Of a stretch of 37,935 bases of DNA, positions 5,249 to 18,199 are shown in pieces (positions within the stretch are counted from its first letter, which is position 1; each line of letters begins with the position of its first letter). The position numbers and the translations under genes were made by a program. This stretch comes from Desulfovulcanus ferrireducens. Its GTDB lineage: Bacteria > Desulfobacterota > Desulfovibrionia > Desulfovibrionales > Desulfonatronovibrionaceae. The stretch lies in NCBI RefSeq assembly GCF_018704065.1, contig NZ_JAGUQP010000005.1:1-37935 (forward strand), read 5' to 3'. The notes under the pieces were generated by a model. The model ran no database searches. It was given only the letters and a program-made list of their open reading frames with translations, and was not told where the DNA came from.

Positions 5249-6297
5249 TGATATCAGTTCAAGATATAATTCAGGATTTAGAAGGCCTGATCCAGGAGCT
5301 AGAGCAAAGCCTGGGTCAGGCTTCTTCTTTCCAGGAGTTGGAAAAGATCAGGGTTGAGTACCTGGGGCGAAAAGGCCGACTTGCTCAGGTAATGTCCCGC
5401 TTGCCTGAACTGTCCAAAGAAGATCGCCCCCAGGCCGGAAAAAAGGCCAATGAAATAAAGAACAAGCTGCACGAACTTTTCGAAGAGAAAAAAGAGTCCC
5501 TTGAAGAGCAAAAGAACCGCCTGGATTTGGCCACGTTTGATCCCACCATTCCGGGCCGAAATCCGGATGTAGGTTCCCTTCATCCAATAACCAGGGTAAT
5601 AGAAGATATCTGCTCGGTCTTTATACAGCTTGGTTTTGATGTGGTCTCTGGACCGGAAGTAGAGAACGATTTTTACAATTTCGAAGCCCTGAACATTCCC
5701 CCTGAACATCCTGCCCGGGATATGCAGGACACCCTGTATATCACAGATAAAATTTTGTTACGTACCCATACATCTCCTTTGCAGATCCGCACCATGCTTA
5801 AACGCAAGCCACCGGTTGCAGCCGTGGCCCCGGGCAAGGTATATCGTCGCGACTCTGACTTAACACACACACCAATGTTCCATCAGATAGAAGGTTTTTT
5901 GGTTGATACTCAGGTGAGTATGGCCGATCTCAGAGGGACATTAACCGCGTTCCTGCACCGGATTTTTGGGCCCAAGACCAGGGTACGTTTCCGCCCAAGC
6001 TTTTTCCCTTTTACCGAGCCCAGCGCAGAAGTAGATATCAGTTGTGTAATGTGTGGTGGTGAGGGGAAAATAGATGGCCAGACCTGTCGAGTTTGTAAAG
6101 AAACAGGCTGGGTGGAGATCTTGGGCTGCGGAATGATTGATCCGGCAGTATTTGCTATGGTGGATTACGATCCTGAAAAGTACAGTGGTTTCGCCTTTGG
6201 ACTTGGTGTGGAACGGATAGCCATGCTCAAATACGGTATTGGCGATCTGCGCATGTTTTTTGAAAATGATATTCGTTTCTTGCAGCAATTTGTTTAA
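5248..6297 (+). CDS. pheS: Phenylalanyl-tRNA synthetase alpha subunit
   Basis: Catalytic subunit of the alpha2-beta2 enzyme. The ATG at 5248 overlaps the rplT stop by one base and has AGGG seven bases upstream; a TTG three bases earlier is in frame but less likely. The N-terminal coiled coil spans roughly residues 1-85. The class II core follows, with [37 protein letters not shown] and the C-terminal [19 protein letters not shown] Cys-rich insert (CVMCGGEGK...CRVCKETG...LGCGM) sits before the last motif and looks able to hold a metal, as seen in some bacterial PheS. Length 349 residues. Confidence 0.96.
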
Positions 6298-6390
6298 CAT
6301 ATACTGTTGAGTGTTAAGTTGTAAGGTTGAACTTTTTTAATGTTCGGAAATTCAACTTTAACTCTGAAAATATAACGCTTAAACCTCCAT

Positions 6391-6488
6391 CGTCATTCTG
6401 AGCGAAGCGAAGAATCTCAGCGAAGCAAAGGCCTGTCCTTAGTAAAGCGCAGGAATTCAGAGACCCTTCTAGGACGCTCAGGGTGACG
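6391..6488. repeat. Palindromic dispersed repeat between pheS and pheT
   Basis: Bounded by CGTCATTCTGAGCG and CGCTCAGGGTGACG, inverted copies with two mismatches over 14 bp. The left part continues AAGCGAAGAATCTC, a sequence type known from memory to be widely repeated in many bacterial genomes. It interrupts the otherwise tight operon without touching a gene. Confidence 0.6.
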
Positions 6489-6569
6489 TTAACCTAACTA
6501 TAGGTATTTTCACGGTAAACTTAGCACTCAATACTTAATATTTAATAATAGTTTAGAACAGAGGAGTCC

Positions 6570-8963
6570 ATGCTTTTAAGTTTAAATTGGTTGCGCGAAT
6601 TTACCCCTTATGAAGGCTCTATAGAAGAACTGGCCGAGAGACTGACCATGCTCGGTCTTGAGGTCGAAGAGATAATCGAGCCTTTTGCACACCTGGCCGG
6701 GGTCGTAGTCGGTCATGTGCTGGAATGTGTACCACACCCTAATTCAGATCATTTGTCTTTGTGTCGGGTAGATGTAGGGGAACAGGTTTTACCGATTGTT
6801 TGTGGCGCGCCAAATGTAGCAAAGGGTCAGAAGGTCCCGGTGGCCCTGGTAGGGACAACCATGCCTGCCGGGTTTAAGATTAAAAAGGCCAAGATTCGAG
6901 GAGAGGTTTCGGAAGGGATGATCTGTTCGGAAACCGAACTTGAGCTTGGCACTGATGCATCCGGTATCATGGTTCTTGATGACGGGCTAAAGCCGGGCAC
7001 GCCTCTGGTTCAGGCCCTGGGGCTTGATGAATGTGTTTTAGACATTGGCGTTACTCCCAACCGAGCAGATTGTTTAAGCGTTCTGGGATTGGCCAGGGAG
7101 GTAGCCACTGCCTTTGATTTGCCATTAAACCTTCCCAAGTTCGAGCTTGAGGAAAATGCCGATCTGGATTGCACCAGGGAAGTCGAGATAATTATAGATG
7201 ACCCCGATCTTTGCCCACTTTATCAGGCCAGGATTCTGACTGGCTGTCAGGTAAAGCCGAGCCCCGCCTGGATGCGTTACAGGCTGATGGCTGTGGGCAT
7301 AAGACCAATCAATAATATTGTTGACGTGACCAATTACGTGCTCATGGAGTTGGGTCAGCCTCAGCACGCTTTTGATAGAGAGCTTCTAGCCGGGCAAACT
7401 ATTCGAGTGGCAAGAGCAAAACAAGGCATGGAAATTGTGACCTTGGATGATCAGGTTCGCAAACTGGAAGACTCTGATCTGCTCATCTGGGATTCAGAAA
7501 AGCCGGTGGGTTTGGCAGGAATTATGGGCGGAGCCAATAGTGAAATCAATGAGAAAAGCTCTGAAGTCCTGCTTGAGTGTGCGATTTTTAACCCCCCGAC
7601 AATCAGAAAGACTGCACGCCGCTTAGGTATAAGTTCCGAGGCTTCTTTCCGTTTTGAACGGGGAGTTGACCAGGTAGGTTCACCCTTTGCCCTGGACAGG
7701 GCAACTTATTTAATGGCTACTCTCTCCGGGGGCAAAGTTGCAAAAGGTGTAGCCAAAGCCGAGCCCAGGCCGTTTGTTAGCTGCCAGATAGATTTTAGAC
7801 CAAAGCGGGCTAGTGAATATTTAGCCCTAGATATAGATGAAGCCTTTTGTGCCAAAACCCTGTCCAAACTCGGCTGTGTGGTCGAGGAAAACGGGTCTAA
7901 ATGGAAGGTTATTCCTCCCAGCTACCGTCTGGATCTAGAAAGGGAAGTGGATCTTATTGAAGAAGTGGGTCGGGTTTATGGTCTAGACAAGATCCCTGCC
8001 CACCTGCCCAGGGTTAGCAAGTCCTTGGATGAAGAACATATCGACCGTGATTATGCCTTCACTTCAAAGGTCAAGAAGTGGGCCTTGGGGCTGGGTCTGC
8101 AGGAGGCCATAAACTATAGCTTTGTAGGTACACAGGACCTGGATCTTTTGGGTATTGCCGAGGAAGGCCGCGTTTTAATCTGCAACCCCCTGACTGAAGA
8201 GCAAAATGTCATGCGACCGGATCTTTTGCCGGGGCTTTTACAAACATTAAAAGTAAACATTGGTCAGGGTCACAAGCGTCTGAGACTTTTTGAGGTAGCC
8301 CATACCTTTATCCAGGACCAGGAAAGCGATACCGAGACAAGAGAAAATAACCGCTTGGGCATTCTTCTTTATGGGCAAAGACATGCACCTCATTGGCCGT
8401 TTAAAGAGGAAGAAGTCGATTATACCGATATAAAGGGGTTGGCAGACCACTTTTTGCTTGCCTTTAGAACACCAACAGCCCAGTTTAAGCTTGTAGAGGA
8501 TCATCCTTACTTAAGCCCTTGCGTGACTTGTGAAGTTGATTCCGTTGCAATAGGCTTTCTGGGCAGGCTGAAGCCGGAGCTTGCTAAGGCATACAAGGCC
8601 AAAAGTGCTGTCTGGTATGCTGATTTTGATTTGGATTTAATGCAGCAAATTTATCATGGCCAGGTGATTAAGTTTAAGAACATTCCCAAGTTTCCGGTAG
8701 TCCGCCGCGATATGACCATAGTTGCTCCCTTAGAGCTTCAGTACGGTCGCATTCTGGAAGTTATAAAACAACTGAAATTGTCGATTCTGGAGGATGTGAC
8801 CCTAATTGATATTTATCAGCCTGAAGGAGCAAAAGAAAAGAATGTTACCTTACGTTTTACCTATCGCCATCCGGAAAAGACTTTAAAAGATAAAGAAGTG
8901 AACAAAGTACAGCAAAAAGTTGCACAATTTGTACTGGATAATTTGGATGTGCGTTTTCCTTAA
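6570..8963 (+). CDS. pheT: Phenylalanyl-tRNA synthetase beta subunit
   Basis: Partner of PheS; binds tRNA and edits mischarged Tyr. The 797-residue protein has the N-terminal tRNA-binding (EMAP-like) domain (VVVGHVLECVPHPNSDHLSL, then CGAPNVAKGQKVPVA), B3/B4 editing domain (GVTPNRADCLSVLGLAREVA), B5 domain, and a C-terminal ferredoxin-fold anticodon-binding domain (FPVVRRDMTIVAP ... LRFTYRHPEKTL). GAGGAG precedes the ATG. The 272-base gap after pheS, which holds a repeat, is longer than usual for pheST. A strong terminator follows, ending the translation operon. Confidence 0.97.
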   Translation: MLLSLNWLREFTPYEGSIEELAERLTMLGLEVEEIIEPFAHLAGVVVGHVLECVPHPNSDHLSLCRVDVGEQVLPIVCGAPNVAKGQKVPVALVGTTMPAGFKIKKAKIRGEVSEGMICSETELELGTDASGIMVLDDGLKPGTPLVQALGLDECVLDIGVTPNRADCLSVLGLAREVATAFDLPLNLPKFELEENADLDCTREVEIIIDDPDLCPLYQARILTGCQVKPSPAWMRYRLMAVGIRPINNIVDVTNYVLMELGQPQHAFDRELLAGQTIRVARAKQGMEIVTLDDQVRKLEDSDLLIWDSEKPVGLAGIMGGANSEINEKSSEVLLECAIFNPPTIRKTARRLGISSEASFRFERGVDQVGSPFALDRATYLMATLSGGKVAKGVAKAEPRPFVSCQIDFRPKRASEYLALDIDEAFCAKTLSKLGCVVEENGSKWKVIPPSYRLDLEREVDLIEEVGRVYGLDKIPAHLPRVSKSLDEEHIDRDYAFTSKVKKWALGLGLQEAINYSFVGTQDLDLLGIAEEGRVLICNPLTEEQNVMRPDLLPGLLQTLKVNIGQGHKRLRLFEVAHTFIQDQESDTETRENNRLGILLYGQRHAPHWPFKEEEVDYTDIKGLADHFLLAFRTPTAQFKLVEDHPYLSPCVTCEVDSVAIGFLGRLKPELAKAYKAKSAVWYADFDLDLMQQIYHGQVIKFKNIPKFPVVRRDMTIVAPLELQYGRILEVIKQLKLSILEDVTLIDIYQPEGAKEKNVTLRFTYRHPEKTLKDKEVNKVQQKVAQFVLDNLDVRFP

Positions 8964-9038
8964 AGCATTATGCACTCCACAGGTAGTCCCTGTACAGACG
9001 AGACAAGTTCAGTAGTTTTTTTAGCTGGAATCAATATG

Positions 9039-9069
9039 AGGCGGACCTTCGGGTCCGCCTTGTTGTTTT
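9039..9069 (+). terminator. Rho-independent terminator after pheT
   Basis: A perfect 9-bp GC-rich stem AGGCGGACC / GGTCCGCCT closed by a TTCG tetraloop, followed by TGTTGTTTT. This is the clearest terminator in the window. Confidence 0.9.
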
Positions 9070-9129
9070 GGGGGAATGAGTTTATAGTCTGTTTAAACAA
9101 GCAGGTATAGGGCTACGAGTTACTAAGCA

Positions 9130-9453
9130 ATGGCGGGCAAAAAGGAAAAGTTATATAAGATTGGTCAGGCAGCTAAGATGCTCGGCCTGGAAAGTTATGT
9201 CCTCAGGTTTTGGGAGAAGGAATTCCCCCAGCTTAAACCTTTGCGCACGTCAAAAGGTCAGAGGCTTTATACTGAAGAACACATTAAGTTAATAAAAAAA
9301 ATCAAGACCCTCCTTTATGAAGACAGGCTGACAATTGAAGGGGCCAAGATGCGGTTGGAAGAACAGGAGCGCTGGTCAGGCCTTCTGTTGGAAATCAAAA
9401 AAGAATTGGAGGAGATAAGGCATCTACTTGGTCAGGACGCAAGAAGTGGCTAA
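9130..9453 (+). CDS. Small MerR-family transcriptional regulator
   Basis: A 107-residue DNA-binding protein. The MerR winged helix-turn-helix occupies residues about 8-75: YKIGQAAKMLGLESYVLRFWEKEFP, then the wing with KGQRLYTEEHIKLI. A short coiled coil follows (LLLEIKKELEEIRHLL). No C-terminal effector domain or cysteines are present, so it is probably a DNA-architectural or ligand-free regulator. Such a gene commonly follows pheT in related bacteria. It lies beyond the pheT terminator, has no strong ribosome binding site, and its target is unknown. Confidence 0.88.
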   Translation: MAGKKEKLYKIGQAAKMLGLESYVLRFWEKEFPQLKPLRTSKGQRLYTEEHIKLIKKIKTLLYEDRLTIEGAKMRLEEQERWSGLLLEIKKELEEIRHLLGQDARSG

Positions 9454-9604
9454 AATTGGCTACACTTTGGTTGAGTTGTTGAGTAGGAAAGTGGTTGAGT
9501 AAGTAGGATGGTCAAAGGAGAAGATTACCCTCGTGGCCTCACTCCTCAACATCATTTTGAGACTTACTAAATAAAGGCACTGCTGGCGGACGCACCCGAC
9601 GCGA

Positions 9605-11230
9605 CTAGCCTAAAAATTTTTTCATGATCTCTTTAAGTTCATACGCAATCTGGTAAACTTTATTTGCTTTTTCTTTGACTTCACTGGCTCTTTGAGCTGT
9701 TTCTCGTCCAGTATCTGTTATATCTTCACTCATAACAACAAATTCTTGAACCTTTTCTGACACTTTTTGAGCATTTACGCTGATTTCATTAGTTGCGGCT
9801 GATTGTTCTTCAACAGCAGTAGCTACATTGGTGGCCAGCTCACTGACTTGTTCAGTAACTTGATACATCCGATTGGCTGCTTCACCAACGAAAGCACTGT
9901 TTTTTTGTAAGTCCTTAACCATCTCTGTTATTTCAACAACAGCATCTCCTGTCTGTTTAGCAAGCTCTTTCACTTCATTAGCTACCACGGCAAAACCCTT
10001 TCCGGCATCGCCTGCTCTTGCTGCTTCAATGGTTGCATTGAGTGCTAAAAGATTAGTCTGCTCTGCAATGTTTCCTATTAAAACGATAACTTCACCGATT
10101 TTATTGGCTGCTTTAATTAAATTCTCGATAGTTTGTTTGGTATTTACAGCTTCCTGTTGAGCTCCATTCGCAGTTTCTCTTACTGACTTGGTATTTTGTG
10201 ATATATCATAAATTGTAGTGGTCATTTCTTCTATTGCGGCTGCAACGCTATTAATTTCTTCGCCAGTTAACTGGGCAATATTTTTTATTCCCTCGGCTTT
10301 ATTTTGAGTGTCGGAAGATACCCTGTCTATATCATTAGAAACCTGATTCATTTCGTTACTGGCAGAAACTAAATGATCAGCTTGTTGTTGAATATCAGCA
10401 ATTAGCTGTTTGGATTTTGTTGCCATTTCTTGAGTTTTAGCTATCAGGTTCTTCAATTTCGTTGTCATCTCCTGAAGATGAATTAATAGTTTGCCGATTT
10501 CTGTTTTATTATTTATGTCAAAGTGAATATCAAAATCACCATCTGCTACTTTATTAAATATAGTAGTTATCTTTTTAAAACCATTATTAATAGATTTAAT
10601 AATAAAAAAAGCAGTTATAATTGCAAAAAATATTGATATAGCAATAGTTGAAGACATAATAAGCTTAGCTTTGGCATAGTCGTTAGACGCATTGTCATTT
10701 CTAATTTTAGCCCTATTGACTCCATAATCCATTAAATCGTTTATAGCCTTCCGGGCTATACGAAATTTTTCTAAAGCCTTACCTAAGACTATCTCTTTAG
10801 CTCTTTCTTTTTCTCCTTTACTGCTCAATGGGAGCACTTTATCCTCTATAATCAACAAATATTCGTTAAAATTACTTTCGAATTCATTGAGCAGCAACTT
10901 TTCTTTTTCTGATAGTCTAGTCTTTCTATATTCTGCTAATTGTTTATAAATTCGATTTTTCTGCTCTTTGATTTGATTTGACAAATCTTCCATCTCTGGC
11001 ATGGACACACTTATAATATGTGTCAAAACATCACCCCTGATTCTATAACTTGCTGACTTAACGTTATCTAAACCTTCTAAAGGAACTAACTCCTGGGTAT
11101 ACATATCAGTAGTTCTTCTGTTTATTTCCTTCATAAAATATAATCCCATTAATCCTTGGCAACAGACCAACAAAACAATAATGGCAAAAGATAGTATCAA
11201 TTGAGTGCTAATTTTTAAATGCTTTATCAT
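9605..11230 (-). CDS. Methyl-accepting chemotaxis protein
   Basis: Membrane chemoreceptor of 541 residues. TM1 is about residues 11-33 and is followed by a periplasmic four-helix-bundle-type sensor (about 34-188, mostly charged helices). TM2 is about 190-212, then comes a HAMP segment (about 213-265). The cytoplasmic signalling domain peaks at the conserved hairpin tip QTNLLALNATIEAARAG (about 391-407). A GGAG motif lies ahead of the ATG. No CheA/CheW gene is nearby, so it must feed a pathway elsewhere. The ligand cannot be told from sequence; related four-helix-bundle sensors bind amino acids, other small molecules or partner proteins. Confidence 0.95.
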   Translation of the reverse strand: MIKHLKISTQLILSFAIIVLLVCCQGLMGLYFMKEINRRTTDMYTQELVPLEGLDNVKSASYRIRGDVLTHIISVSMPEMEDLSNQIKEQKNRIYKQLAEYRKTRLSEKEKLLLNEFESNFNEYLLIIEDKVLPLSSKGEKERAKEIVLGKALEKFRIARKAINDLMDYGVNRAKIRNDNASNDYAKAKLIMSSTIAISIFFAIITAFFIIKSINNGFKKITTIFNKVADGDFDIHFDINNKTEIGKLLIHLQEMTTKLKNLIAKTQEMATKSKQLIADIQQQADHLVSASNEMNQVSNDIDRVSSDTQNKAEGIKNIAQLTGEEINSVAAAIEEMTTTIYDISQNTKSVRETANGAQQEAVNTKQTIENLIKAANKIGEVIVLIGNIAEQTNLLALNATIEAARAGDAGKGFAVVANEVKELAKQTGDAVVEITEMVKDLQKNSAFVGEAANRMYQVTEQVSELATNVATAVEEQSAATNEISVNAQKVSEKVQEFVVMSEDITDTGRETAQRASEVKEKANKVYQIAYELKEIMKKFLG

Positions 11231-12043
11231 ATTATAACTCCATTAAAACTTGCTAGATTGCTATTTTACAGATTTTTTAGGTGTTTATAAAAAATTTGCT
11301 AAAGTTTTTGTAAGGTTTTGTCAATTCTTATGTCTGAATAATCGCTTCTGACACTATTTAAGATCCGCCTGCAAAAAGTCCTTTTTTGCAGGCAATGTTG
11401 AATTTTGAATTATGAATGTTGAATTATTTAAAAGGGTTACAGGATAATTTTTTGCTAAAGTTGTAAATTTCTAATTTTTGCAGTTGCATCACTTAAAAAA
11501 GAGTATTCTAGGGTAATCCAAATCTCATTATTTTTTGCTTGCTCTGATACCTATTTTTGACTTTTTATCCTGTTTTCATAAGGTCATAGCTATTGTCTTA
11601 GGTTTCCAAATTTTTTTTGGGACCATGCGTACTTTTTCAGACATTTCAAACAGATAAAGTGTAGGTTTGAGACACTTTCCTGGTTTCTTATTCTATGTTG
11701 TGTTATTGGTCTAACCTAGCTGCGCCTTATAGTTGAATGGGTTCAAAAAGTAGATTTTGAACCGGCGATTTTCACCAATGACTGAGATTGCCACGGGCAG
11801 CGAAGCTGCCCTCGCAACGACAATCTCGCCCCTGTCATTGCGAGCGGAACAAAGTGGAGCGAAGCAATCTCAAAGTTTGAACTGCAAAAAAAATCGCTCA
11901 ATTTAGGTCTAATTAAAAAAATCTCTCACTTGCTCACTTCGTTCGCTTGAGGCATTTACGCTGTTAAATGCTGAATGCCAGTCCAGCTTAGCTGGATTTA
12001 ACAGGGTAGGGCGGCGTCAGTGCTACCTGTCGGATACGCCCCC
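11231..12043. other. Gene-free region with hairpins and a REP-like element
   Basis: No gene is visible. The region contains a hairpin at 11367-11393 (GCCTGCAAAAA / TTTTTTGCAGGC), a 9-bp hairpin GGTTCAAAA/TTTTGAACC at 11740-11763, the REP-like element at 11764-11899, and a nested hairpin at 11961-12004 (CTGTTAAAT/ATTTAACAG around TCCAGC/GCTGGA). It lies upstream of the chemoreceptor and downstream of the broken oxidoreductase fragment. Confidence 0.6.
11764..11899. repeat. REP-like palindromic element, copy 1
   Basis: Ends GGCGATTTT and AAAATCGCTC are inverted. Inside are nested inverted repeats: GAGATTGC with GCAATCTC, and CTCGCAACGAC with GTCATTGCGAG (one mismatch). A second copy at 23937-24064 is closely similar along its length. 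The core resembles the widespread bacterial repeat built on GTCATTGCGAG...GCGAAGCAATCTC. Confidence 0.7.
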
Positions 12044-12256
12044 TTACCTTAGACTTAGCTTTTTGATCTCCAGGGCATAGGCCTTTTTGAACTGTTCCAG
12101 AAAGTTGCGATCAATTTTATCCCCCCGCTTTTCAACTTCCAGATAACGTTTTGGTATTTTTACCTGGTCTGGATTATAGTCGGTTTTAATTTTTAATACC
12201 AACCTGGATGCTACAAATCGTTTTTGAAGATATTGGCTACAAATTCTTAAGACCAT
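12044..12256 (-). pseudogene. C-terminal fragment of an aldehyde:ferredoxin oxidoreductase
   Basis: The 70-residue frame matches the last ~55 residues of the intact enzyme at 16454-18199: KRYLEVEKRGDKIDRNFLEQ against KRYLEVENWKGKIDPDFLEQ, ending QFKKAYALEIKKLSLR against QLKKAYAQEIKKLSQS. DNA identity near the 3' end is close to 90% by eye, decaying toward 12256. Everything upstream in the enzyme (all cofactor and cysteine regions) is missing, so it cannot function alone. The fragment and the intact 3' end are direct repeats that bracket the accessory island at 12.3-16.4 kb. Confidence 0.8.
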
Positions 12257-12594: not shown

Positions 12595-13053
12595 ATGACA
12601 GTTTTCTTAACAATATTTGCTGGCTTTTTCACCTTCGTTTTAGGACAACTTGTACTGAAGCTGCTAATAGGCCCAGTACATGAGTTTAAGCGTACCGTTG
12701 CTGATATTTCACACGCAATTATTGAATATGCTAACGTCTATTCAAATCCTGGTGTGACAGGTGAAGAACTTGAAAAGAAAGTTTCTAATGAGTTCAGACA
12801 ACTCTCGTCTCGACTGAATGCCCAAATGTACTTAATTCCACGCTACGATCTAACTTCAAAAATCTTTGGCTTGCCTTCACGAGAGGCGGTAGCAATGGCA
12901 GCTAAATGCTTAATTGGTCTGTCTAATAGCGTCTATAAATCAGCATATCACCTTGCTTCAAAGAACGCTGATAAGGCCGAAAGGATATGCGATGTTTTGG
13001 GTATCTATGTACCTGAGCAAGATTGCATTAATAAGAAAAGAGAAAAGTCCTGA
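12595..13053 (+). CDS. Small membrane-anchored protein of unknown function
   Basis: A 152-residue protein with one N-terminal membrane helix (about residues 4-27, FLTIFAGFFTFVLGQLVLKLLI) and a mostly helical soluble part. The DNA between this and the next gene can fold like an attC site whose left arm contains this gene's stop codon, as in integron cassettes. The ribosome binding site is poor. I do not recognise the family with certainty; similar short proteins occur in accessory regions of Proteobacteria. The soluble part includes the segments EFKRTVADISHAIIEYANVY and NADKAERICDVLGIY. No catalytic motif is evident. Confidence 0.75.
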   Translation: MTVFLTIFAGFFTFVLGQLVLKLLIGPVHEFKRTVADISHAIIEYANVYSNPGVTGEELEKKVSNEFRQLSSRLNAQMYLIPRYDLTSKIFGLPSREAVAMAAKCLIGLSNSVYKSAYHLASKNADKAERICDVLGIYVPEQDCINKKREKS

Positions 13054-13122
13054 CAGGCCCCTGGAGCTGACCGTGTAACTGGCACGCGCTACTTGAACGG
13101 CAACTCAGCTCAACCGTTAGGT
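13048..13122 (+). repeat. attC-like recombination site 1
   Basis: The left arm (TCCTGAC, 13048-13054, containing the previous gene's stop) and right arm end (GTTAGGT, 13116-13122, matching the integron core GTTRRRY) bracket inner inverted arms GAGCTGA (13064-13070) and TCAGCTC (13105-13111). The next gene starts 28 bases after the core. This is the usual cassette layout, though the left arm is degenerate. Confidence 0.55.
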
Positions 13123-13150
13123 TGTGCAATTATTGCCAAAGGATCCTCTT

Positions 13151-14863
13151 ATGCATGACTATTCAACGAAATCAATCTTCACAGAAAATTTTCTTTCCTT
13201 GGAATTGCTAAATGACATATTGAATTATTTGCCCTGGCTGTTTCTTCATATTGGGGGTAAAAGAGTAGCGGTTGATGCTAAGCCCGACCAGTTTATTACT
13301 TCATTAAACGAGAAGGCCACAAAGCTTAATTTCAACCAATCTAATTTTAAAAGGCTACTAACTACGCACGTCAAAGCTTTGAAGGCCGGTAGGAAACCTA
13401 CAAAGAACTTAGCGCATTTTGTTCGTTGTCATCATGAAAAAGTTAAGGATAGCATTCACGGTATACCGAACACATTAGATAAAGCACGTAGTGCGTTACT
13501 GGCTTTAATTGAAGTTGAAGCCTTTATTGACAGAGATCAGGTATGCGATGCAATTGTTTTACTTAGTGATGAAGTTTCATCTCTGTTTATCGCAAAGGTG
13601 GTTCGTGCTTGGAAAGAACAGGCGAAAAGGCATAGGGAAGAACATGAAAGCTCTCCTTTACTTGAGATTTTTGAAGGTGACATATTTTGGGTAAGTCATA
13701 ATTTGATGGATAGTCTTGATGGCGTCTCAAGGTATAGATTCCGGGAACATTTTGGCGTTGGTGAGTTTGAAGCAGCATTTGCAAGTGTAGAGTCTATGTT
13801 GGCCACATCCCTCCTAGAGGGATTATCTGGGGTGGAAGCCAAGGCAATAGCAATTTGGGGGGATCAGAGATTGACATCAACTGCCTATAACCTCTGGCTT
13901 GTGAGTAGAAGTCGAAATCTCCCAAACCGGATTAGGGATTTTGTAAACGTTGCTTTACAGAGGATTGCTGGATGGCAGTTTCCTGAGGGCTGGTGGACTG
14001 ATTTTCAGTTATCTGAGCCCGCTGGTAAGGATCCGACTGGTTTGGATACTTATCGGCATTTGCCTAGTCCTTACACAACAGCACTTTGTTCCTTGAACCT
14101 TCTCAAACTAGCGATTTCAGAACCTATGAAACGACAAGGAGTCATAGGTGCAAAATGGTTACTCGAACAACAAAATCCAGATGGAAGCTGGTCAAGAAAA
14201 GATATGTCGGAGAAAGGGATTGCCGTGAGACCAGACCTCTTTCTTACCCTGTTGTCTCTTGAAGCCATAGGTCGTAGTGGAATTGAGAACGTCGACCATT
14301 CCATCCAACTAGGCGTTAAATGGATTATGCGCCAGCAGAATGAACTTGGAATGTGGGATGACGACGATTTCCCCTTTCCGTTTATGACTGTTCTAGTCTT
14401 AGAATTTTTGCAAAAAAAAGAATACTTCTCAAGAGATTTGGACACCTATTTGTCGATGTGTAGGGAGTTCTTAAACAGGAGCACGCAGCTGTCGCTAGAG
14501 GAGAATTCGAACTCTCATAAGCTAGCGATTATCACTGCTTTTCAGGGAATTGAAGCCTTCCTATATTCAGTGTTGAGTCATCCGAATGTAGATATCAAAA
14601 TTTTCGAAAAAGCAAATGAAACTATTGGCATGAGGAAAGCATTGTCTCAGTTTCAAACTTACCTACAAAACAAAGGCAAGTTAAAACGTAGTAGGGTAAT
14701 AAAATATCGTAATTCATTGGATCAACTTGCATACTTGCGAGATCAAGTGGTTCATAAGGGAATCGACATAACAGAATCAATGTGTCGCCCTCTCATTACA
14801 GATGCATTTAGGTTTGTGACTGAATTTTCTCTGGAGGTTTTTGGTTTCGATATATGGGACTAG
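13151..14863 (+). CDS. Toroid-repeat protein with C-terminal HEPN-like RxxxxH motif
   Basis: A 570-residue cytoplasmic protein. The start was placed at ATG 13151 because AAAGGA lies about eight bases upstream; a GTG nine codons earlier is also open. The middle (about residues 220-440) resembles the alpha/alpha toroid of prenyltransferase/terpene-cyclase folds, with repeats WLLEQQNPDGSW (about 337-348) and WIMRQQNELGMWDDD (about 390-404). The Asp-rich catalytic motif of squalene-hopene cyclases is not seen, so it may be a binding scaffold. The last 100 residues are helical and carry RDQVVH (R530, H535), matching the R-x4-H signature of HEPN ribonucleases. HEPN proteins often act in toxin-antitoxin and phage defence; that role here is inference. 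Flanked by attC-like sites. Confidence 0.8.
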   Translation: MHDYSTKSIFTENFLSLELLNDILNYLPWLFLHIGGKRVAVDAKPDQFITSLNEKATKLNFNQSNFKRLLTTHVKALKAGRKPTKNLAHFVRCHHEKVKDSIHGIPNTLDKARSALLALIEVEAFIDRDQVCDAIVLLSDEVSSLFIAKVVRAWKEQAKRHREEHESSPLLEIFEGDIFWVSHNLMDSLDGVSRYRFREHFGVGEFEAAFASVESMLATSLLEGLSGVEAKAIAIWGDQRLTSTAYNLWLVSRSRNLPNRIRDFVNVALQRIAGWQFPEGWWTDFQLSEPAGKDPTGLDTYRHLPSPYTTALCSLNLLKLAISEPMKRQGVIGAKWLLEQQNPDGSWSRKDMSEKGIAVRPDLFLTLLSLEAIGRSGIENVDHSIQLGVKWIMRQQNELGMWDDDDFPFPFMTVLVLEFLQKKEYFSRDLDTYLSMCREFLNRSTQLSLEENSNSHKLAIITAFQGIEAFLYSVLSHPNVDIKIFEKANETIGMRKALSQFQTYLQNKGKLKRSRVIKYRNSLDQLAYLRDQVVHKGIDITESMCRPLITDAFRFVTEFSLEVFGFDIWD

Positions 14864-14903
14864 CATAAGCAAAGATTATTCGGTCCAAAACAGGCTATAT
14901 TTT

Positions 14904-15000
14904 GCCTAACAAAGGGTTGGAGTCTGACCAAAAATGTGTCTTTTTTAGTTAACTGTATGTATTTTAAGAGCTTTTGGCAGCTTAACCGTCGCCATTAGAA
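14904..15000 (+). repeat. attC-like recombination site 2
   Basis: The left core GCCTAAC (14904-14910) fits RYYYAAC exactly. Downstream GGTTGGAGTCTGACCAAAA pairs imperfectly with TTTTGGCAGCTTAACC near the right end. The right core reads ATTAGAA (14994-15000) instead of GTTRRRY, so the site has probably lost activity. The next gene begins 22 bases later. Confidence 0.55.
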
Positions 15001-15022
15001 GCAACAAAAAGGGAAATTACCT

Positions 15023-15955
15023 ATGCCATTATTTGAGATAGCAGGGAATAGCCTTACACCTGTTGAACAAACAAATTTTCAACTAGAAAAAGACTTGCAG
15101 AGACTGATAGAGACCAATTTAGAGACAGTTTTTAATTGTCAATACGTTGCAGCTGAGTTTTCCACCGGCGCACAACATGCTGGTAGGATTGACACACTAG
15201 CATTATCAGAAGACAAAAATCCTGTAATTATTGAATATAAGAAAGTTGAATCATCTGAATTAATCAATCAAAGCTTATTTTATTTGCACTGGATTCAAGA
15301 TCATAAAGGTGACTTTGAGATAGCGGTTCAAAGAGCTCTGGGGAACGGGATAGAAATTGATTGGTCAGATGTGAGGGTGATATGTATAGCTCCAAATTAT
15401 AAAAAATATGACCTTCATGCTGTTCAAGTTATGGGTGCTAATATTGAATTATGGAAATACAGATTGTTCAAAAACAATACAATATATTTAGAAGAGGTTT
15501 TTCATGCCTCCAAAGTAAACAATGTAGTTGATGAAAATGGCAAGAATCCTGTGATGGTCGAAGCTGGGAAAAAGGCGGCACAGGTGAGAGCAACCGCCAC
15601 ATACACATTTGAACAGCATGTTGAAGGGAAAAGTGAAAATATAAAAAATCTAATCTATATGATTAGAGAGTACATGCTAGGCCTTGATTCTTCCATAGAG
15701 GAGGTGCCAAAGAAATTTTATATTGCATACAAGATATCGCAAAATATTGTATGCGTGGAGCCTCAAACAAAAAATATAAAGATATTTGTCAAATTAAAGA
15801 GTTCAGACATTGACGATCCACCTGATTTTTACCGAGATGTAAGCAAAATTGGCCACTATGGTACTGGTGACTCAGAATTTACGATATCATCAGAGGAGCA
15901 GTTTGAATTAATAAAGAAATATATTGAGTTAGCCTACAATAAAGTCGGTGGATGA
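15023..15955 (+). CDS. Predicted PD-(D/E)XK nuclease-like protein with C-terminal DUF5655
   Basis: 310 residues in two parts. The N-terminal 170 residues look like the NucS/DUF91 side of the PD-(D/E)XK nuclease fold: GRIDTLAL gives D57 and PVIIEYKK gives E71 and K73, in the right order for the active site. The C-terminal part (about 190-310: FEQHVEGKSENIKNLIYMIR ... KIGHYGTGDSEFTISS) matches what I recall of DUF5655, often fused to such nuclease-like domains. A DNA- or RNA-processing role is plausible but untested. It lies between attC-like sites 2 and 3 on the same strand as its neighbours. Confidence 0.82.
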   Translation: MPLFEIAGNSLTPVEQTNFQLEKDLQRLIETNLETVFNCQYVAAEFSTGAQHAGRIDTLALSEDKNPVIIEYKKVESSELINQSLFYLHWIQDHKGDFEIAVQRALGNGIEIDWSDVRVICIAPNYKKYDLHAVQVMGANIELWKYRLFKNNTIYLEEVFHASKVNNVVDENGKNPVMVEAGKKAAQVRATATYTFEQHVEGKSENIKNLIYMIREYMLGLDSSIEEVPKKFYIAYKISQNIVCVEPQTKNIKIFVKLKSSDIDDPPDFYRDVSKIGHYGTGDSEFTISSEEQFELIKKYIELAYNKVGG

Positions 15956-15957
15956 TC

Positions 15958-16056
15958 TTCTAAGAAAAGGGTGATCACGGACGGCAACCAGAAGGCTTTT
16001 TTCAAAGGCCGTGCCCACATCACTGTTGTAGCTTCCAGTAACACCAGACGTTAAAA
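15958..16056 (+). repeat. attC-like recombination site 3 (degenerate)
   Basis: The left core TTCTAAG starts just after the stop of the preceding gene; the right core is GTTAAAA (16050-16056). The inner arms GGTGATCACGG and the inverse of CCAGTAACACC pair imperfectly. The central part holds another hairpin (AAGGC...). The next gene starts 32 bases after the core. This is weaker than sites 1 and 2. Confidence 0.4.
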
Positions 16057-16088
16057 TCGAATGAGAGCAAATTTTTTATGGGGGAAAA

Positions 16089-16307
16089 GTGCCAATAATA
16101 TCAATAAAAATTGCAAAAGGTCGTTCAATTGAGCAAAAACGGAAACTTGTAAAGGCAGTAACAGATTCTGTGGTTTCAACCTTGGATGTTAAACCGGAAT
16201 GGGTTTCAGTTTTGATAGAAGAATTTGAGCGAGAGAATTGGTCCACTGGCGGAGAGTTGCATATTGATAAGTTTGGTTCTGGTTTTGGGCACTCAGGAAC
16301 AAAATGA
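16089..16307 (+). CDS. 4-oxalocrotonate tautomerase-family protein
   Basis: A 72-residue protein of the tautomerase superfamily, in which the amino-terminal proline acts as the general base after Met removal. The GTG start is followed by CCA, so Pro1 is present, and GGGGGA lies just upstream. Arg11 (GRS) is kept. Residue 39, Arg in classical 4-OT, is Ser, and Phe50 is Trp (ENWSTGGEL), so substrate choice probably differs. The last member of the cassette-like set; these proteins are typical small cassette cargo. The true substrate cannot be predicted. Confidence 0.88.
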   Translation: MPIISIKIAKGRSIEQKRKLVKAVTDSVVSTLDVKPEWVSVLIEEFERENWSTGGELHIDKFGSGFGHSGTK

Positions 16308-16417: not shown

Positions 16418-16453
16418 ATCTCTTCATCATTTAAGGATTTTGCGATAACGGAC

Positions 16454-18199
16454 TTAACTCTGACTTAGTTTTTTGATCTCCTGGGCATAGGCCTTTTTGA
16501 GCTGTTCCAGAAAGTCGGGATCAATTTTACCCTTCCAGTTTTCAACTTCCAGATAACGTTTAGGGATTTTTACCTGTTCCGGATCAAAGCCGGTTTTTAT
16601 TTTTAATGCCCACCTGGAGGCCTGAATTTCTTTGGCCGTCTCTTCCAGTTGCTCTTTAGAATAAGAATAGCCCAGGCTATTAAGTGCCTTACAGATATTT
16701 TCCACAGGATAGGCCTTGCGTCCAAACAGGCAACCAACCATAGAGTTGAGGAGACAGCGATATCTCTCCTGTTCAAGCATAAAATTTATGGCCTTTGAGA
16801 TATTTTTGCTATCTTCTTCCTGATCAAAGGAGTAAGCTCCGCTGTCCAGATGGGAGTGGCGAAAACCTAGAGCCTGGCTGACAAAATAGGTTTCTCCCGT
16901 GGCATACCCGGCCATTTCCTGACCAAGAACGCAGGCAAAATCCTCTCCTCCGAATTTTTCCGCGGCCTTCATCGTCCCTTGTGCAAGTTGAGCGTAAAAA
17001 TCATTCTTTTTAAATGCCAGATGTGTGATCGCCTCGCGATATGGCCCTAGTTGTCCAAATTCCAGGGGAACAAGAGTCTGGCTCAAAGAGACAACTCCTT
17101 TTTGCAAGGCCTCTGTGGCCCAGGCCAGGGCTACTCCTGTGCTTATGACATCAAGCCCGACGCGTTCCACGTCTTCAAGCAGGGTCAGGACATAGTCTTC
17201 CTGGGTCAGTCCCAGCATGGAGCCAACAGCAAAAATAGGCTCATAATCATAGGCTACCTGTCGGTATAAAAATTCGTGTTCAGGCCCAAATTTTTCGCGT
17301 AAAAGACCGATATGGATACATCCAACAGGGCAGTGGGCACAGGCAGTTTGACGCAAAAGGAGCTTTTCGGCAAAGGTTTCGCCTGAGATATTTTCAATTT
17401 TTGTGTCTTTGGTGGCCTGTAGGTTGCGCCATGGCAGGGCCTTGAGTTCGTTTAAGGGGATCAGATTCTGGGCCGTCCCTAAATCGTGATATTTGTGTAC
17501 AGCTTTGGTCTTGGTAATAATACTGTAAATTTCATCGTAAGTTTTATTGTATTCTTTGCCCTGGGTTGCCTCGAACTCAATATGGCTGTCACCGGCTAGA
17601 ACGATTCCTTTCAAGTTTTTGGCGCCCATTATTGCCCCGCTGCCCAGGCGGCCAAAATGGCGATAGGTATCTACGTTTATCAGGGCAAAACTAGCCAGAT
17701 TTTCTCCTGCCGGGCCTATACGTAAGATAGAGCGGTGGCCTGAATGTTCAGGATAAACCCTGCGCAAAATTTTACCTGTTTTAAAGATATCCTGTCCCTG
17801 CAAATAAGGGGTTTCATGGATGTCGATGCTTTTTGAAGATATGGCCAGGCAGGATAATCTTTCTGCTCGGCCTTTGATCACTATGGCGTCGTAGCCAGTA
17901 AAGCGAATGGCCAGAGCTGACCTTCCGCCGGCATGGGTTTCGGCATATTGACCGTGATAGGGAGATTGAAATCCAAGCACGGTTTTACTCATCATGGGGA
18001 AATATCCGGTCAAAGGGCCAATGGCCAGGATTATGGGCTGAGAGGGATCAAAAGGGTCGGCTTTTAAGTCTGCAAAGTGGGCAAAAAGCCCGGCCGCTAG
18101 TCCTGAGCCGCCAAGCCAATTATTTCTCTGATCAAAATATTCAATGCTGGCCTTTTTTTGACTCAAGTCAACTACCAGGACTTTGAATTTATTGTTCAT
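16454..18199 (-). CDS. aor: Aldehyde:ferredoxin oxidoreductase
   Basis: Oxidises aldehydes to acids with a tungsten (or molybdenum) bis-pterin cofactor and a [4Fe-4S] cluster, passing electrons to ferredoxin. The 581 residues show the family N-terminal domain (NNWLGGSGLAAGLFAHF; YHGQYAETHAGGRSALAIRF). The cluster ligands are the triplet in CAHCPVGC (about residues 285-292) and a late Cys in MVGCLFGR (about 490). GGAG precedes the ATG. The ferredoxin-like gene is immediately upstream on the same strand, 111 bases away, and probably forms the electron-transfer partner. The 3' end of this gene is duplicated as a fragment at 12044-12256. Confidence 0.94.
   Translation of the reverse strand: MNNKFKVLVVDLSQKKASIEYFDQRNNWLGGSGLAAGLFAHFADLKADPFDPSQPIILAIGPLTGYFPMMSKTVLGFQSPYHGQYAETHAGGRSALAIRFTGYDAIVIKGRAERLSCLAISSKSIDIHETPYLQGQDIFKTGKILRRVYPEHSGHRSILRIGPAGENLASFALINVDTYRHFGRLGSGAIMGAKNLKGIVLAGDSHIEFEATQGKEYNKTYDEIYSIITKTKAVHKYHDLGTAQNLIPLNELKALPWRNLQATKDTKIENISGETFAEKLLLRQTACAHCPVGCIHIGLLREKFGPEHEFLYRQVAYDYEPIFAVGSMLGLTQEDYVLTLLEDVERVGLDVISTGVALAWATEALQKGVVSLSQTLVPLEFGQLGPYREAITHLAFKKNDFYAQLAQGTMKAAEKFGGEDFACVLGQEMAGYATGETYFVSQALGFRHSHLDSGAYSFDQEEDSKNISKAINFMLEQERYRCLLNSMVGCLFGRKAYPVENICKALNSLGYSYSKEQLEETAKEIQASRWALKIKTGFDPEQVKIPKRYLEVENWKGKIDPDFLEQLKKAYAQEIKKLSQS

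Follow-up and report, generated by a model that had tools for sequence, protein, structure and literature searches.

A probable relic integron cassette array with decayed attC sites in Desulfovulcanus ferrireducens

The stretch of DNA considered here, called the window, covers positions 1 to 37,935 of contig NZ_JAGUQP010000005.1 of Desulfovulcanus ferrireducens (NCBI RefSeq assembly GCF_018704065.1). Between 12595 and 16307, it carries a row of four plus-strand genes separated by three sites that resemble attC, the recombination site of integron gene cassettes. The row is very probably a relic integron gene-cassette array with decayed sites, whose integrase is absent or acted from elsewhere. 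On sequence comparison, the origin of the array is settled by the homology of genes 1 and 3 with cassettes in other genomes. A relic cassette array is an already known kind of element, and this one shows that cassettes can still be recognised, via the boundaries of homologous cassettes, after their attC sites have fallen under model thresholds. A routine search for attC would be likely to overlook relics of this sort.

Homologous cassettes and cassette closure

Two of the four genes, 1 and 3, have relatives elsewhere with a 5' core TTRRRY, a complementary R'' at the 3' end, and a position beside an attC site. Relatives of gene 3 (15023 to 15955) are found at 40 loci in many phyla, at 57-82% identity, and at 11 or more of these loci the gene is enclosed in a true cassette whose boundaries match those in the window. 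In such cassettes, GTTAGAAGC or a close variant, for example GTTAGAAACC, stands on the left, and the complementary GCTTCTAAC (GGTTTCTAAC) follows directly after the gene. The homologs are thus bounded as G|TTAGAAGC...GCTTCTAAC and the window gene as A|TTAGAAGC...CTTCTAAG; at the same positions, the window has ATTAGAAGC for GTTAGAAGC and CTTCTAAG for GCTTCTAAC, with the ATTAGAAGC that ends site 2 aligning with the left boundary of the homologous cassette. The core letters have changed on both sides, and the cassette-specific letters are kept. Homologs bounded in this way occur in Alishewanella, Oceanisphaera, Allopseudospirillum, Marinospirillum, Desulfuromonas, Saccharobesus, and others, several of them with a full attC site at one end or at both. 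The protein tree gives the window protein no firm placement within the family. A plasmid of Saccharobesus litoralis (L062, 2345-3291) carries a copy of this cassette gene between two model-accepted attC sites; the copy was matched in two pieces and is probably frameshifted.

For gene 1 (12595 to 13053), the informative relative is 48% identical and lies inside a true cassette of L124, a genome from the class to which Alishewanella belongs. Here GTTAGGAGTC precedes the gene, the stop codon falls within the R'' CTCCTAAC, and an attC hit of 25.3 bits comes right after. The stop codon of the window gene likewise lies within R'' (TCCTGAC). Within the window itself, gene 3 retains both boundaries with degenerate core letters, and gene 1 retains the right one. 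Gene 1 is absent from 33 genomes that carry gene 3, and no copies of genes 1 and 2 were found in viral contigs. Another relative of gene 1, on a Vibrio parahaemolyticus plasmid (L061), was rejected as a cassette, there being no attC nearby.

Each cassette of a genuine array opens with bases that can pair with the R'' closing it. Cassette 2 shows five Watson-Crick pairs and one G-T pair out of six (null 0.0015), and cassette 3 pairs at all seven positions (null below 0.0004); the same complementarity is present in control arrays. Cassette status is therefore probable for gene 2 as well. The cassette origin of genes 1 and 3 is supported by their homologs, and genes 2 and 4 would be cassettes too.

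The three attC-like sites

Each of the three sites departs from the consensus on one side. Site 1 (13048 to 13122) begins with R'' TCCTGAC, which spans the TGA stop codon of gene 1 and has GAC for AAC, and it ends in R' GTTAGGT. Site 2 (14904 to 15000) has an intact R'', GCCTAAC, starting about 40 bases beyond the stop codon of gene 2; its right end is ATTAGAA, with ATT for the GTT of R'. Site 3 (15958 to 16056) begins with R'' TTCTAAG, in which AAC has become AAG, 2 bases past the stop codon of gene 3, and ends in R' GTTAAAA. All three lie on the plus strand, and their left arms share the R''...GAC spacing, with GAC at offset 21-22, that is common to many of the attC sites used for model training. 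From the right cores of sites 1, 2, and 3, the next gene starts after 28, 22, and 32 bases, respectively. The first-pass annotation, made from the sequence alone, had described this layout of four genes and three junctions, including the core letters, the left arms of sites 1 and 3 at the preceding stop codon, and the gap of 22-32 bases; inspection of the sequence and its open reading frames agrees with it throughout.

Two covariance models served as stand-ins for IntegronFinder's own attC model in the threshold tests. The training set of the first comprised 26 attC sites, taken from class 1 integrons and from marine gammaproteobacterial arrays and not from the window. The second, broader model was built from 92 attC sites, and the window was run against it with filters off, on both strands, over 38 kb. 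A strict regular-expression search in the loci of the phylum that carry the integron integrase gene, intI, returned few sites, and the covariance models were used instead. The first model gives 86 matches at an expectation value (E) of 1 or below in array loci, among them arrays of the window's own phylum outside its training set (L041, L043, and L045). Over the rest of the genome, it finds nothing convincing.

The broader model returns eight hits in the window, among which sites 2 and 3 take the top two ranks, in that order, and site 1 the sixth, all with the expected end points. By chance, about 0.04 hits would be expected across the three junctions (389 bases), and the probability of three or more is about 1e-5. 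Given this joint probability and the low single scores, the sites are real jointly and weak individually. A further attC-like match of 7.7 bits at 11996-12060 overlaps the end of a fragment of an aldehyde:ferredoxin oxidoreductase (AOR) gene and was taken as chance.

Several points weigh against a cassette origin. The first model finds none of the three sites and, by itself, would have meant rejecting them. With the broader model, sites 1, 2, and 3 score 8.3, 12.8, and 11.5 bits, and none passes the usual attC threshold alone (E 6.6, 0.6, and 1.2, values that are rough owing to a short calibration). Site 3 is also not fully independent of this model, since its training set consisted in part of attC sites from the same DUF5655 cassette family as gene 3. 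The first-pass annotation had held that the absence of any attC model hit above threshold would count against it, and that is essentially what was found. Functional attC sites form a bottom-strand hairpin and have cores of the form RYYYAAC and GTTRRRY, from which TCCTGAC, ATTAGAA, and TTCTAAG deviate; as DNA, the bottom strands of sites 1 to 3 fold no better than shuffled sequences (z -0.28, +0.71, and -0.25). In comparison, an intact attC reaches -3.4, and one site of a second cluster of this genome, on contig C8, reaches -2.3. The fold test is weak evidence, however, because two further model-accepted attC sites fold unremarkably (z -0.3 and -0.5). Of the proposed attC-like inverted repeats, then, the attC-like sites stand by their joint rank, but they are not confirmed as strong inverted repeats. 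Lastly, no left boundary was found for cassette 1, no attC match follows gene 4 in the covariance-model scans, and neither gene 2 nor gene 4 has a cassette homolog in what was searched.

The end of the row admits a variant that is compatible with the relic array. Genes 1 to 3 would be cassettes, and gene 4 would be native or separately acquired, abutting the last attC. Gene 4 does lack an attC behind it that is complementary to its start, since closure fails there too, and the nearest tautomerases of its type in cassette-bearing genomes have no obvious cassette boundary. Yet it starts 32 bases after the core of site 3 in cassette orientation, and a vanished terminal attC would be in keeping with the overall decay. 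Such a mixed island is a possibility, though we consider it rather unlikely.

The missing integrase and further attC clusters

The whole assembly (2.59 Mb in 60 contigs, 98.6% complete) contains no integron integrase above the TIGR02249 cutoff; the best piece scores 80 bits versus a cutoff of 265. Among the tyrosine recombinases, the two top-scoring ones exceed the cutoffs for XerC and XerD, and neither matches the central portion of the integron-integrase model. What had been noted for the array, that no integrase is visible, can thus be extended to the genome as far as it is assembled. In the order, intI occurs in 9 of 199 genomes, and two genomes of the same family (G297 and G302) and an order-mate (G298) have it with attC sites adjoining. 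Both loss of the integrase in the lineage and delivery by an integrase elsewhere are therefore possible. One study found complete integrons to be absent from its Desulfovibrionaceae (PMC11434368).

A cluster of attC sites lacking integron-integrase (CALIN) is a category defined with IntegronFinder (PMC9024848). Like a CALIN, the window has head-to-tail cassettes on the same strand, attC-like sites between the genes, and no intI nearby or in the genome. Unlike a CALIN, which requires two or more attC sites each above the covariance-model threshold, its sites lie under the individual detection thresholds with either model, their cores are mutated, and the terminal boundaries are lost. Of the initial suggestion of a CALIN or a decayed array, it is the decayed array that holds, but not the formal CALIN. 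Off-target insertion, loss of intI, and rearrangement are described routes to a CALIN (PMC8618304), and the window data do not discriminate among them. The chromosomal integrons of marine Gammaproteobacteria are similar in that they contain relatives of genes 1 and 3 as cassette genes. They differ from the window, which has only four genes, decayed sites, no intI, and hence no complete integron with intI, attI, and an attC array; no attI was recognised, and no search was aimed at attI.

In the history that we propose, the genes started out as circular cassettes, each carrying an attC, and an integron integrase joined them head-to-tail into the row; homologous cassettes support this for genes 1 and 3, and for genes 2 and 4 we infer it. 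The integrase would since have gone from the lineage, or it would have acted from elsewhere. The recombination sites would later have mutated in their cores, and stable bottom-strand hairpins are no longer predicted. As a result, excision and reshuffling of the cassettes are probably no longer possible, leaving the genes stranded in place, where the intact reading frames would have carried on as ordinary chromosomal genes. Since all four frames are open, the genes may be expressed and useful.

Could the array instead be a CALIN that is still mobile, its degenerate-looking attC sites functional and its integrase encoded in trans on a plasmid, on a phage, or in genome sequence missing from the assembly? 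The sequences of attC sites do vary widely while their structure is conserved (PMC9024848), genera of the same family have intI, and an assembly of this completeness in 60 contigs could be missing the gene. The cluster on contig C8 is, moreover, better preserved. Nevertheless, every site has one core in which the conserved AAC or GTT letters are altered, the bottom strands fold like shuffled sequence, and the first model misses all three, and we find continued mobility improbable.

The better-preserved cluster lies at 9608-11244 of locus L162 (C8:76000-93047), where four attC matches on the same strand (27.5, 19.8, 19.6, and 17.3 bits) within 1.6 kb delimit three small cassettes that show closure complementarity. 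Immediately upstream is a group II intron with catalytic RNA domains and a maturase. Large proteins beside the cluster (L162, 4445-7498 and 11283-15914) match the defence-related PADLOC profiles Ppl and PDC-S37/Hhe, so the cluster may lie within a defence island. On contig C14, there are four further same-strand matches to the attC model (26.5, 19.7, 17.6, and 10.7 bits) at 6080-10005 of locus L161 (C14:28000-46000). As closure complementarity fails there, C14 is left as a possible further decayed cluster. A protein of unknown family (215 aa) is present in 89% identical copies at 277-1032 of the window (minus strand) and at 7259-7924 of L161 (plus strand); the C14 copy sits between attC-like sites, and the window copy has no detected attC.

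The array in the window would be the most decayed of these two or three clusters. A tentative extension, to which we give somewhat less than an even chance, is that the integrase was lost, that several clusters are losing their sites at unequal rates (C8 being well preserved and the window array nearly erased), and that defence-type genes have stayed intact, domesticated as fixed chromosomal genes. The array adds a case in which cassette cargo may have become fixed once the integrase was gone, where intI is rare in the lineage.

Cargo and surroundings of the array

Gene 3 codes for 310 amino acids, with a nuclease-like N-terminal domain followed by DUF5655, and matches the PADLOC candidate PDC-S18 over its whole length (370 bits, 2.7e-111, residues 2-308). 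In this, it is like other PDC-S18/DUF5655 proteins, whose function is predicted only; unlike them, it is on a decayed cassette. Its structure model (predicted local distance difference test, pLDDT, 79.5) finds its best solved matches in EndoMS/NucS, with Shedu nucleases lower and overall template-modelling (TM) scores low. In the family alignment, D57 is invariant and E71 and K73 are nearly so, a pattern that in our reading fits a PD-(D/E)XK nuclease. We found no literature on PDC-S18, nor on DUF5655 with integrons. Integron cassettes are a reported store of anti-phage systems (PMC12409362), which makes a role of gene 3 in anti-phage defence plausible, and such defence is the likely value of the cargo. 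Relatives of the gene occur in several phyla, and in marine Gammaproteobacteria and Desulfuromonas it travels within a cassette.

Gene 1 encodes a 152-aa protein with a hydrophobic N-terminal stretch and no Pfam family. Gene 2 (13151 to 14863) encodes a squalene/hopene-cyclase-like repeat protein of 570 aa (PF13243, 29.6 bits, above cutoff). We read its C-terminal RDQVVH motif as resembling the HEPN motif, and the protein matches PDC-S64 weakly; a single-sequence structure model was too poor for use (pLDDT 37). Gene 4 (16089 to 16307) encodes 72 aa of the 4-oxalocrotonate tautomerase family (PF01361, 62 bits). The early guesses about the cargo were about right for the candidate nuclease with DUF5655 and for the tautomerase, but the cyclase-like protein was not anticipated.

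The array sits between an intact AOR-type gene (16454 to 18199, minus strand), which has orthologs in other genomes of the family, and a duplicate of its 3' end (12043 to 12211, minus strand) that is 86% identical to 16453-16621 in a repeat search. In two relatives (L148 and L156), merR and the AOR gene lie within 1.6-1.8 kb with none of the four genes between them. The finding of the same genes contiguous in relatives, which had been named as evidence against cassettes, was not made: the genes are absent from the AOR loci of relatives, the window's gene 2 is the sole copy in 297 genomes from the phylum, and elsewhere genes 1 and 3 occur as true cassettes. A same-genus genome (end of L144) also repeats AOR sequence directly after AOR; the duplication may thus predate the arrival of the array.

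An ordinary genomic island or operon with terminators or other short palindromes, not derived from an integron, would account for the weak attC scores and folds, the partial direct AOR repeat that brackets the region, and a GC content of 36-41% against 45-46% in the flanks, but it is already largely refuted by the homologous cassette boundaries of genes 1 and 3, and with the joint ranking of the three sites and the closure complementarity also against it, we regard it as highly improbable.

A scan of the window with the Rfam library returned tRNAs only. To the left of the AOR fragment, at 11777-11890, the window has a palindromic repeat with TCATTGCGAGCGGAACAAAGTGGAGCGAAGCAATCTC, which we take to resemble the dispersed repeats known from many bacteria.

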